From positions 186,001-250,000 of the forward strand of contig DASUYB010000089.1 in assembly GCA_036377595.1 (NCBI GenBank): a stretch of 64,000 bases of DNA, in the 5' to 3' direction. The position numbers and the translations under genes were made by a program. The DNA is from Longimicrobium sp. (lineage in GTDB: Bacteria > Gemmatimonadota > Gemmatimonadetes > Longimicrobiales > Longimicrobiaceae). Below, piece by piece: positions 4,368-61,635 of this stretch (its first letter is position 1; each line of letters starts with the position of its first letter). The notes beneath the pieces are model-generated. The model was not told the origin of the DNA, ran no database searches, and saw nothing but the letters and a program-made list of their open reading frames with translations.

Positions 4368-5137
4368 CGGAGCTTCCCCGCGTGCTGATCGTCGACGACG
4401 AGCGCCTGGCCCGCCTCGGCGTGCGGCAGCTGCTCGAGGAGCACGACGTCGAGGTGGTGGGAGAGTGCGACGGCGGCGAAGCGGCGATCGCCGCGATCCG
4501 GCGGCTGGCACCCGACCTGGTGTTCCTGGACGTGCAGATGCCGGAAGTAGACGGGTTCGCCGTAGTGGAACGCGTGGGCCTGGAGAAGATGCCGGCGGTG
4601 GTGTTCGTCACCGCCTTCGACGCGTACGCCGTCCGCGCGTTCGACGTGCACGCGGTGGACTACGTGCTCAAGCCGATCGACGAGGAGCGGTTCCACGAGT
4701 CGGTGGCACGGGCGCTCGCGCGGCTGCGCCAGGCTTCGCTGGAGCGGATCGACCAGCGGGTCGCGGCCCTCGCCAGTGCGGTTCCGTCGGCCCTGGAAGC
4801 GGGCGGGCAGCGCATCGTGGTGAAGGAGGGCGGGCGGATCTCCTTCGTGCGCCATGACGAGATCGACTGGGCCGAGGCCGACGGGAACTACGTGCGGCTC
4901 CACGTCGGCGCGAAATCGCACCTTGTCCGCGGCACCATGGACCGGACCGCCGAGGTCCTGGGACCCGGCTTCATCCGCATCGGCCGTTCGGCGGTCGTCG
5001 CGATCGGGGCCATCCGCCACCTGGAGCCGTATGGCCGTGGAACCTACTCGTTGTTGCTGCGGAGCGGAGAGAAGCTGGTAACGAGCCGGCTCTACCGCGG
5101 AAACCTGGAGAGGCTCCTCCGTGGAAGCCTCGGCTGA
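4364..5137 (+). CDS. LytTR-family response regulator
   Basis: A 257-residue regulator with an N-terminal receiver domain (phospho-acceptor Asp56 in LVFLDVQMP, acidic pair DD at 11-12, Lys in YVLKPID) and a C-terminal LytTR DNA-binding domain (about residues 150-257) with the typical DWAEADGNYVRLH and FIRIGRSAVV segments. The start ATG lies inside the stop region of the kinase gene and follows a GGAGG site, so the two products are made together. LytTR regulators bind direct repeats upstream of their targets. No such pair was identified here. Confidence 0.95.
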   Translation: MTELPRVLIVDDERLARLGVRQLLEEHDVEVVGECDGGEAAIAAIRRLAPDLVFLDVQMPEVDGFAVVERVGLEKMPAVVFVTAFDAYAVRAFDVHAVDYVLKPIDEERFHESVARALARLRQASLERIDQRVAALASAVPSALEAGGQRIVVKEGGRISFVRHDEIDWAEADGNYVRLHVGAKSHLVRGTMDRTAEVLGPGFIRIGRSAVVAIGAIRHLEPYGRGTYSLLLRSGEKLVTSRLYRGNLERLLRGSLG

Positions 5138-13833: not shown

Positions 13834-13914
13834 TCTCACGCAGAGGCCGCAGAGGTCGCGGAGAACTCAGCGCCGAGGTTGGTTCTCTGCGTCCTCTGCG
13901 GCCTCTGCGTGAGA
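13834..13914. repeat. Palindromic repeat family R4, copy 1
   Basis: A long imperfect hairpin opening TCTCACGCAGAGGCCGCAGA and closing with its near complement. It is one of six such palindromes in the window (also 14954, 36507, 43374, 45871, 61572), all at gene ends. Confidence 0.8.
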
Positions 13915-36484: not shown

Positions 36485-36506
36485 GACCGATCCGAAAAAG
36501 ACTTGC

Positions 36507-36570
36507 CTCACACAGAGCAGCAGAGGCAGCAGAGAACTCACCTCTGCTGCCTCTGCTGCTCTGCGTGAGA
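36507..36570. repeat. Palindromic repeat family R4, copy 3
   Basis: Hairpin of CTCACACAGAGCAGCAGAGG and its complement between two convergent genes. It ends GTGAGAAAAAAG on the plus strand. It can serve as a bidirectional terminator for cstA and the MNIO operon. Confidence 0.75.
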
Positions 36571-36584
36571 AAAAAGATCGGCGG

Positions 36585-37232
36585 TCAGCGCACGGATGCA
36601 TCGAGGACGCGCTCGACCAGGCCGCTGCCACGGCGGTCGAGGAGGAGATGGAACTCGCCCTCGGGCACGTCGTCGTACGGGAGCGGATCTTTGGCGGTGA
36701 GGTGGCGCAGCAGGATCGTCGGATCGTGCGCGAACGTGGCGACGCGGACGAGGGGATGCGAGGTGACGTCATCACCCGGGTCCTGCTCGGAGACGCGGCT
36801 CGGCTGGGGGGCCATCGCCAGCTCGTAGCGCATCATCTCGTAGTCCACCACCTCGCGCAGGTAGGGCGACGAGAGGCGGCCGCGCTCCAGCGCGCCGCGC
36901 ACGAACGCCGCGAAGCGCTCCGCCTCGCGGCGCATGTTGCGGTCGGGGGCGTGCTCGGCCCAGAACTCGTCGGCCACGGCGCGCGCCTCGCCGCCCAGCA
37001 GGTGCAGCGCGCCGGGGAAGATCGTCGCCAGCGTGGTGATGCGGTTGTAGCGGTAGAGAGTGCAGTTCACCGCCATCCCGCGCTGCCCGGCGGCCGCGGC
37101 CAGGCGCCGGCGCTCGACGTCCGTCAGCTCGTATCCGGCCAGCGACGCGTCGGGATCGGCCGCCACGCGCCGGCAAAAGGCGAGCGACGCCGTCATCTCC
37201 GCCAGCGCGATCTGGAAGCCGCGGAGCGACAT
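36585..37232 (-). CDS. DUF2063 / HvfC-like partner of the MNIO enzyme
   Basis: A 215-residue protein. The N-terminal DUF2063-type domain (about 1-110) begins LRGFQIALAEMTASLAFCRRV and has the helical pattern VNCTLYRYNRITTLATIFPG seen in HvfC/BufC proteins. The C-terminal part ends in beta strands (GEFHLLLDRRGSGLVERVL). Such partners bind the precursor leader and deliver it to the DUF692 enzyme in methanobactin, TglHI and bufferin systems. The ATG overlaps the stop of the DUF692 gene by four bases, so the two are translated together. Confidence 0.8.
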   Translation of the reverse strand: MSLRGFQIALAEMTASLAFCRRVAADPDASLAGYELTDVERRRLAAAAGQRGMAVNCTLYRYNRITTLATIFPGALHLLGGEARAVADEFWAEHAPDRNMRREAERFAAFVRGALERGRLSSPYLREVVDYEMMRYELAMAPQPSRVSEQDPGDDVTSHPLVRVATFAHDPTILLRHLTAKDPLPYDDVPEGEFHLLLDRRGSGLVERVLDASVR

Positions 37233-38167
37233 CAGGCCGCGCGGCGGTGGCGGCGCCAGACCTCGCGCGCGGTGCACAGCTCGCGGATCACCCCCTCCGC
37301 GCCCATCGCCGGGTACCACCCCTCGTGGAACTCGAAGGTGACGGCGCACAGGTTGGGACACGCCTCGACCACGTCCGGCAGCAGCTCCCACACTGCCTGG
37401 GCGACCGGGCCTGCGTGCGAGTCGGTGTACAGCCCCGCCAGCTCGCTCCCGCCCGCGATGTGCAGCTCCACCACCGCGGACAGGTCCAGCGCGAAGATGA
37501 ACGCGCGCGGGTCGAAGCCGTGGTTCGTCGAATTCACGACGACGTTGTGCACGTCCAGCAGCAGCCCGCACCCGGTGCGCGCCGTCAGCGCGTTCAGGAA
37601 CTCGGGCTCCGTCATCTCCTGCTCGGGGAGATCCACGTAGTACACGTTGTTCTCCAGCAGGAAGGGCACGGGGATGCGCGACTGCACGTACTCCACGCGC
37701 TCGATCATCATCTCCAGCACCTCGCGGTCGTACGGCACCGCCAGCGCCATGCTGGCCGACAGCTCGGTGTGCGCGTCCACGCCGGGGAGGCGGATGAAGG
37801 AGAGATGGTCGCTGTGCCACGGCATCCGGTACCGTTGCTGCCACCGCGCGAGCTGCTCCACGTGGCCCGTGTCGAGCGGGTCCGCGCTGCCGATCGACAA
37901 CCCCACGCTGTGCCCGACGATCGTGAGCGCCTGGGCCGCGCGGTCGAGGATCTCCATCTGCGACTCGCTCTCCACGAAGCGCGCCGGGGCGGACGGGCCC
38001 TCGTCGCTCCACGCGCGGTCGGGGATGGTGGCCAGGTAGTCGAGCTCGGCCGCGTGGTCCGCCACGAACGCCTGCAGCGACGGGTTGTACAACACGCCCA
38101 CGCCCAGCCGCGGCAGCGCGGCCAGCCGCCTGCGCGCGGCGATCGGGTCGGATGCGATGACGGTCAT
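37232..38167 (-). CDS. DUF692 multinuclear non-heme iron oxidase (MNIO)
   Basis: A 311-residue TIM-barrel enzyme of the DUF692/MbnB/TglH/HvfB family, which uses two or three irons to modify cysteines in ribosomal peptides. The N-terminus LGVGVLYNPSLQAFV and metal-ligand segments are visible: MPWHSDHLSF, FLLENNVYYVDLPEQ, LLLDVHNVVVNSTNHG, VELHIAGGSE, YTDSHAGPV and FEFHEGWYP. The ATG at 38167 is chosen because the family starts there. A 48-codon precursor-like gene lies 71 bp upstream and the DUF2063 partner overlaps downstream, which is the standard MNIO operon order. Confidence 0.92.
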   Translation of the reverse strand: MTVIASDPIAARRRLAALPRLGVGVLYNPSLQAFVADHAAELDYLATIPDRAWSDEGPSAPARFVESESQMEILDRAAQALTIVGHSVGLSIGSADPLDTGHVEQLARWQQRYRMPWHSDHLSFIRLPGVDAHTELSASMALAVPYDREVLEMMIERVEYVQSRIPVPFLLENNVYYVDLPEQEMTEPEFLNALTARTGCGLLLDVHNVVVNSTNHGFDPRAFIFALDLSAVVELHIAGGSELAGLYTDSHAGPVAQAVWELLPDVVEACPNLCAVTFEFHEGWYPAMGAEGVIRELCTAREVWRRHRRAA

Positions 38168-38192
38168 CTGCGGTGATGCGAAAGGAACGGAT

Positions 38193-38232
38193 CGCCGCTC
38201 CCGGACCAGCCGTGGCCTGCCCGGGAGCGGCG
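38193..38232 (-). terminator. Hairpin between precursor and MNIO genes, possible attenuator
   Basis: A perfect 12-bp stem (CGCCGCTCCCGG) with a 16-base loop sits in the gap between precursor and enzyme. It lacks a T-run, so partial termination or RNA stabilisation is more likely than full stop. Such features let precursor outnumber enzyme. Confidence 0.5.
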
Positions 38233-38238
38233 GCTCGG

Positions 38239-38385
38239 TCACTCGGCCGAGGCGACCTCGACGATCTTCACGATCGGATCGTTCGGATCGGTGGGGCCAA
38301 TGCCCGAGAGGCATGCCGGGCAGTACGTGGGGTCCTTCGGGTCGGTCGGCTCGAGGGTGGGGTAGCGCTCGATCGTATCGGCCAT
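38239..38385 (-). CDS. Putative MNIO-modified RiPP precursor peptide, 48 residues
   Basis: A short gene with an ideal ribosome binding site (GGAGG, five bases before ATG). The leader-like N-terminus is MADTIERYPTLE. Two copies of a PTDPxDP motif (EPTDPKDPTYC and GPTDPNDPIV) surround the only two cysteines, in YCPAC. The tail is hydrophobic then acidic (IVKIVEVASAE). No signal peptide is present, unlike bufferins. The Cys pair and the position directly upstream of DUF692 and DUF2063 genes make it the likely substrate. The modification and function are inferred. I do not recognise it as a known MNIO substrate class. Confidence 0.75.
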   Translation of the reverse strand: MADTIERYPTLEPTDPKDPTYCPACLSGIGPTDPNDPIVKIVEVASAE

Positions 38386-38757
38386 GTAGGCCTCCGTATG
38401 GGGTGTGGGTTCCGGGGGAGGAAAAAGCGACGGAGCCCGTCCCGGACCGGACTCCTTGTATCGGATGGTGCCACCGATGTCCACAAAGGCGCTGCACGAA
38501 GGCGCGGGGAAGCGCCGGAGATCGCACACGCGGCCCGCAATCATAACCCCGAAGTTCCGGTCCACGCAACGATGAAACGGCGGAAAACATCAGTGTTCAT
38601 CCGGACCGCGCCGGTGGCGCCGGAATCGAAGCGCGGTCTCCACGGCGGAGCGGACGAGGTGGCCGCGGCTTGTGAAGCCGGGCGACGCGCGCGAATCTTC
38701 CACCCGCGCCCTGCCGTAATCTCCCCACTGTCGGAGACTCGAAACGCACGACGCGTC
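38386..38757. other. Divergent promoter region between the RiPP-like operon and the VanW fusion
   Basis: About 370 bp with no supported gene. It should hold promoters for both directions (a candidate for the operon is listed separately). No promoter was recognised for the plus-strand gene. Confidence 0.45.
38457..38486 (-). promoter_or_regulatory. Candidate promoter of the RiPP-like operon
   Basis: On the minus strand, TTGTGG (38486-38481), an 18-bp spacer and GATACA (38462-38457) lie about 71 bp before the precursor start. Confidence 0.35.
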
Positions 38758-45870: not shown

Positions 45871-45942
45871 TCTCACGCAGAGGAGCAGAGGCAGCGGAGA
45901 ACTGAACGCAGTTCCTCTGCTGCCTCTGCTCCTCTGCGTGAG
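45871..45942. repeat. Palindromic repeat family R4, copy 5
   Basis: TCTCACGCAGAGGAGCAGAG and its complement, between the convergent M28 and M1 peptidase genes, eight bases after the M28 stop. The stem is almost perfect. Confidence 0.85.
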
Positions 45943-61571: not shown

Positions 61572-61635
61572 TCTCACGCAGAGCAGCAGAGGCAGCAGAG
61601 GTGAGTTCTCCGCTGCCTCTGCTGCTCTGCGTGAG
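61572..61635. repeat. Palindromic repeat family R4, copy 6
   Basis: TCTCACGCAGAGCAGCAGAG and its complement between the convergent DUF3618 and Omp85-like genes. Confidence 0.85.

Follow-up and report, generated by a model that had tools for sequence, protein, structure and literature searches.

The reactions that MNIOs perform on peptides are unusual, and clades with a substrate motif of their own have tended towards a chemistry of their own. Several are known to act on cysteines together with RRE partners (PMC12452194, PMC10880893, PMC12668002). Bufferins (BufABC) and captophorins/oxazolins are encoded in the order precursor, MNIO, partner; their Cys-containing precursors have Sec signal peptides and several Cys or EGKCG/Cys-Lys motifs, and their partners are full DUF2063 proteins. 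Methanobactin (MbnABC) likewise relies on an MNIO, with a Cys core in a precursor that has no signal peptide, and in the aminopyruvatide pathway a C-terminal Asp is modified and a P450 is used (PMC10635010). Small ORF-DUF692-DUF2063 units whose peptides hold six Cys are described in a 2021 study of Antarctic soil. Antoine et al. 2025 described, in silico, a group referred to as adjamnio-7, which comprises signal-peptide-less CxxC precursors from Novilysobacter with enzymes of MNIO SSN cluster #7; according to the same article, the partners in signal-peptide-less MNIO systems tend to be of PME type 2 (PMC12452194).

The locus considered here lies in a 64,000-nucleotide stretch of Longimicrobium sp. 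(contig DASUYB010000089.1), which as a whole is called the window. With TglHI (3-thiaglutamate/pearlin; PDB 8hci, 8hi7) it shares both protein folds, as predicted, all nine iron ligands and a substrate that lacks a signal peptide, and with the bufferins and captophorins/oxazolins the gene order and a Cys-containing precursor. Membership of the bufferins or captophorins was ruled out by the absence of a signal peptide, by the tree described below and by profile scores (177.7 bits against the BufB equivalog, cut-off 310). The lack of a signal peptide, the MNIO and the Cys core are also found in methanobactin, but the window enzyme reaches only 31.3 bits against the MbnB cut-off of 325, and a fold search with the partner matched TglI and no MbnC chain. 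The enzyme can be aligned over its full length with ApyH, and a PME type 2 partner is a further likeness to the aminopyruvatide system as outlined in PMC12452194; its ApyH score of 136 bits, however, falls far short of the cut-off, 400.

The three genes of the operon

The peptide, MNIO and partner genes form a real three-gene operon on the minus strand (38385..36585; Table 1). The initial annotation had described a 48-residue gene with a ribosome binding site placed 71 bp ahead of a DUF692 gene, and all three points hold: GGAGG stands five bases before the ATG of the precursor gene, the spacer up to the MNIO start codon measures 71 nt, and the middle gene matches PF05114 with 205.8 bits (cut-off 25; E 9.2e-61). 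The four-base overlap that it gave for the second and third genes is in fact a single base (TGATG). One MNIO and one copy of such a peptide were found in the genome, and PADLOC returned no match.

Table 1. Features of the operon and of its surroundings in the window
Feature	Coordinates	Strand	Basis
Precursor peptide candidate, 48 aa	38239..38385	(-)	ORF; homologues upstream of MNIO elsewhere
Conserved core CPACLSG, precursor residues 22-28	38302..38322	(-)	Alignment of 26 peptides
MNIO (DUF692, PF05114), 311 aa, ATG at 38167	37232..38167	(-)	Profile match, ligands, model
Partner, 215 aa, ATG at 37232, stop at 36585	36585..37232	(-)	TglI-like predicted fold
GC-rich stem-loop of 14 bp in the 71-nt spacer, without a U tract	38193..38232	(-)	Folding against shuffles
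Weak promoter candidate TTGCGT-18-TATGAT, similar in two relatives	38540..38569	(-)	Read by eye
Terminator-like hairpin with T run	38455..38432	(-)	
Palindrome on AGAGGCAGCAGAG, four copies	13842-13906, 36502-36574, 45887-45927, 61588-61620		

The AlphaFold model of the enzyme is a TIM barrel (mean pLDDT 85) that is closest to TglH. The iron ligands of TglH (H71, H107, E151, D184, N187, H216, D229, H231 and E258; PMC10880893) correspond to H86, H121, E172, D205, N208, H236, D249, H251 and E279 of the window MNIO, and 9/9 are identical here and in all 27 aligned enzymes, a set that consists of the clade and fusion enzymes discussed below and includes the window copy. Asn73, a residue that TglH cannot do without (PMC10880893), is matched in none of the aligned enzymes, the window MNIO among them. 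This residue bears on carbon excision of the TglH type, wherein the Cys beta carbon would be removed and the peptide would be a scaffold that later releases a small thia-amino acid. Such a reaction is improbable for this locus: among solved structures TglH is closest to the enzyme and TglI to the partner, and TglH groups with the clade in the tree, but it does so on a long branch where its placement is unsure, Asn73 is missing, and TglH uses a C-terminal Cys that is added post-translationally, whereas both cysteines of the window peptide are encoded and internal.

The third gene had been put down as DUF2063. Its product scores 25.4 bits, under the Pfam cut-off of 27.2, and it is its predicted fold that relates it to known partners: the AlphaFold model (mean pLDDT 90), a helical domain followed by a partial RRE-type domain, has TglI as its sole PDB match at E<=0.001 (probability 1.00). 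A TglI-like fold with a DUF2063 signature below cut-off makes it a partner of PME type 2 rather than a standard DUF2063 protein. Six other loci have a long C-terminal extension on the MNIO and appear to be natural MNIO-partner fusions; the extension of one of them matches the partner profile with 98.4% probability (4.8e-15; the query began with one stray residue), and a CxxCxSG peptide is encoded upstream in 6/6.

The window partner is about 50 C-terminal residues shorter than those of its closest relatives, G306 and G243, and a palindrome that occurs four times in the window begins some ten bases past its stop codon. The window copy might thus be decaying, its partner truncated beside a dispersed repeat and the operon dead even though those of the relatives work. 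This is very unlikely, as the precursor, the enzyme ligands and the core are all intact, the model of the partner is confident to about residue 210, and proteobacterial partners (192-225 aa) stop near the same point and also do without most of the G306/G243 tail.

The CxxCxSG core and its enzyme clade

The precursor candidate (MADTIERYPTLEPTDPKDPTYCPACLSGIGPTDPNDPIVKIVEVASAE, 48 aa) has no match among Pfam and NCBIfam models. As the initial annotation held, it has no Sec signal peptide, judged from the lack of a hydrophobic N-terminal stretch, and differs in this from the bufferins. The PTDPxDP repeat reported around CPAC is present in the window peptide but is not what the family conserves: the closest relative has the second copy only, other relatives have it in part or not at all, and by comparison of the peptides the repeat is a lineage-specific trait special to the window peptide. 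Conserved instead is a core of the form [G]CxxCxSG(xD), for which the window has CPACLSG. When 26 peptides are anchored on the first Cys, Cys is found at positions 0 and 3 in all 26, Ser at +5 and Gly at +6 in 25/26 each, and a preceding Gly and an Asp at +8 in 19/26 each; near-copies among the peptides mean that these counts overstate independence. The window precursor is 65% identical to that of its closest relative, and the 26 codons that differ (10 synonymous, 16 non-synonymous) lie mostly outside the core, which points to a conserved core rather than to strong constraint over the whole peptide. The window's family has short leaders rich in Pro and Asp; those of proteobacteria are longer and finish with a conserved VPELPG, and the fusion group has yet another type. 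Since near-relative precursors share the leader only in part, their sequences give no clear sign that it is recognised.

CPAC resembles the CPxC turns of zinc knuckles and rubredoxin, and with only two Cys the product could be a small, unmodified metal-binding peptide at the service of the MNIO, such as a metal donor or a regulator. However, the Pro varies across the family (GCRPC, GCxAC, GCNTC) while the Ser-Gly after the second Cys is kept, so that an enzyme-recognised core fits better than a metal knuckle. In studied systems, moreover, peptides encoded directly before an MNIO are substrates (PMC12452194), and the metal-binding reading is quite improbable.

The enzyme is present in 5/21 genomes of the window's family, a patchy distribution, and each of these five loci has a small upstream ORF with CxxCxSG. 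Within this family strong precursor matches occur only in MNIO-bearing genomes; orphan precursors were sought, and the weak matches obtained appear to be due to chance. A scan of the genome collection added loci in Holophagales, Acidobacteriaceae, Burkholderiales, Hydrogenophaga, Luteimonas and others, again with such peptides (one Holophagales locus has two in tandem), and larger draws added members of Acidobacteriota, Burkholderiales and Lysobacteraceae, a repeat draw of Acidobacteriota yielding mostly the same genomes again. Clade-level scores are rare (4/347 Acidobacteriota, 2/300 Hydrogenophaga-order and 6/247 Luteimonas-family genomes), and these frequencies are not unbiased rates because sampling was centred on genomes in which the enzyme had already been found. 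In total, 20/21 distinct genomes with a clade MNIO, drawn from Gemmatimonadota, Acidobacteriota and Pseudomonadota, encode a CxxCxSG peptide upstream, which is the outcome of the homologue search that the initial annotation had proposed as a check and does not refute its reading. The deviating clade member, L060, has GCEACGR in place of CxxCxSG.

Specificity was assessed by scoring MNIOs with a clade profile and searching the 900 nt ahead of each for C..C.SG. Of the loci that reach 250 bits, 35/36 have the motif, a number that includes same-genome duplicates (distinct genomes, 20/21). Between 178 and 250 bits the motif accompanies 7/11: six of these matches (five distinct) belong to precursors of fusion enzymes, and the one at L061 falls in a Gly/Ser/Cys-rich stretch and probably arose by chance. 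It accompanies 2/97 lower-scoring MNIO matches, namely the sixth fusion locus (L089) and a distant one that is probably also chance. Set against this 2/97, the 20/21 of the clade exceed what chance would give. Plasmid MNIOs retrieved with the window enzyme, which served as negative control, have Cys-rich, signal-peptide-like precursors and score 152-168 bits. The 250-bit cut was chosen after the score gap had been seen, and the tree is therefore the fairer test. Here a 99/92 branch has the 26 motif-bearing enzymes, L060 and TglH on one side and 84 other MNIOs on the other, and separates the motif-bearing clade from bufferin-type MNIOs; the exact placement of TglH and L060 is unsure owing to their long branches. 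The clade is defined by the tree and not by score alone, since the Holophagales MNIO L156 reaches 198 bits yet has no CxxCxSG precursor.

L061-L064 and L156, which score about 180-200 bits with the clade profile, make up an MNIO clade of their own within Acidobacteriota; in place of CxxCxSG peptides, L061 and L156 are preceded by Gly/Ser/Cys-rich stretches, possibly another type of substrate. In a different family of the class to which the window belongs, many genomes have a weak PF05114 relative (L009-L024; 86-98 bits) that matches the middle of the profile only.

Sequence comparison supports the precursor as a conserved MNIO-linked candidate without a signal peptide, distinct from bufferins. 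It had been suggested as a possible new substrate class; that it is a wholly new one is not supported, because adjamnio-7 had already been named by Antoine et al. 2025 (PMC12452194). Like the window precursor, adjamnio-7 peptides as described there have no signal peptide, contain CxxC and are encoded directly upstream of the MNIO, and the Novilysobacter representative belongs to the same bacterial family as the Lysobacteraceae members L036 and L117-L120, which show its features. Adjamnio-7, going by its description, is probably the proteobacterial branch of the CxxCxSG family. The available text of that article makes no mention of Gemmatimonadota, Acidobacteriota or a CxxCxSG core (PMC12452194), and in openly readable article text the motif had no match besides adjamnio-7. 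What is added here to that account are the short precursors found in the window's family, a core shared across phyla, the fusions and the enzyme clade.

Proposed mechanism

The locus is quite likely a minimal RiPP-type operon in which a leader guides the precursor and one or both of its cysteines undergo oxidative modification by a TglHI-like complex. The 48-aa peptide would be the substrate, its first 20 or so residues acting as leader and CPACLSG as core. By analogy with TglHI, MbnABC and FonBC, the TglI-like partner would dock on the MNIO and bind the leader through its RRE-type domain, and a two- or three-iron centre would use O2 to modify one or both CxxC cysteines. Counting against this reading are the deviating core of L060, the shorter window partner, the patchy occurrence of the operon and the long branch on which TglH is placed.

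As to the chemistry, the leading guess, though a weak one, is a Cys-derived heterocycle (thiooxazole or oxazolone/thioamide), which could turn CxxC into a metal ligand. It is conceivable, if doubtful, that the clade instead performs an undescribed cysteine chemistry on CxxC as a unit, such as a paired heterocycle or a ring derived from both Cys, for which Ser-Gly and Asp would be needed in recognition or catalysis and whose product would be intracellular.

In three phyla, then, one MNIO clade goes together with a single short core motif. The setting is minimal, with three genes, or two in lineages with an enzyme-partner fusion, and one or two precursors. With a setting this small and a single motif, it is clear enough for a co-expression test what the substrate is, which residues are likely to be modified and which protein is the partner, and Hydrogenophaga species are culturable hosts.

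RNA elements, repeats and gene neighbourhood

A hairpin similar in size to that in the precursor-MNIO spacer, with a different sequence, occupies the same place in four relatives and is thus found in all five family members. Its z value is -3.7 in the window and -5.1, -3.3, -2.6 and -0.8 in the relatives (4/5 at -2.6 or lower). Its role may be to shield the part of the mRNA that encodes the precursor or to curb read-through, and the peptide would then be made in excess of the enzyme. The scanner gave no sigma-70 site upstream of the operon at its threshold. The terminator-like hairpin falls in what is presumably the 5′ leader of the precursor transcript; an attenuator was considered here and rejected, since G306, the closest relative, does not preserve the T run. 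The palindrome, with 8 half-sites against 0.08 expected in the window, has one copy (at 36502) between the convergent CstA and partner genes and is likely a dispersed repeat or a two-way terminator; Rfam matched miRNA look-alikes on a palindrome and nothing else.

The absence of a transporter or protease beside the operon, as first annotated, stands insofar as there is no dedicated export or protease gene, but CstA is the convergent neighbour of the partner gene and an SSF symporter is encoded nearby. With no such gene of its own, the operon may yield a product that works within the cell or depends on housekeeping enzymes for processing. No peptide aminoacyl-tRNA ligase, the enzyme that adds the Cys in the TglH pathway, was found among the four neighbour genes scanned. 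Conserved neighbours were seen only in G306, whose operon is likewise flanked by CstA, a VanW/glycosyltransferase protein, an SSF symporter and BacA/UppP, in a different order; the more distant relatives examined have other ones.

Other peptide genes were encountered around related operons. In two relatives, small proteins with MKKFSLDLEALKVDSF / MKKLRLDIDSLQVESF and Cys-rich ends are encoded near the operon (L049, reverse-complement 4567-4896; L051:603-989) and look by eye like lanthipeptide-type (pinensin-like) precursors. A 69-aa peptide ending in LTLQTGPGIPGGGGSGGGTVF (L005:3468-3677), downstream of the G224 operon, is possibly an unrelated RiPP precursor. The Holophagales operon with tandem precursors (L031:18-4217 and 4400-4910) directly follows a nonribosomal peptide synthetase-like gene.
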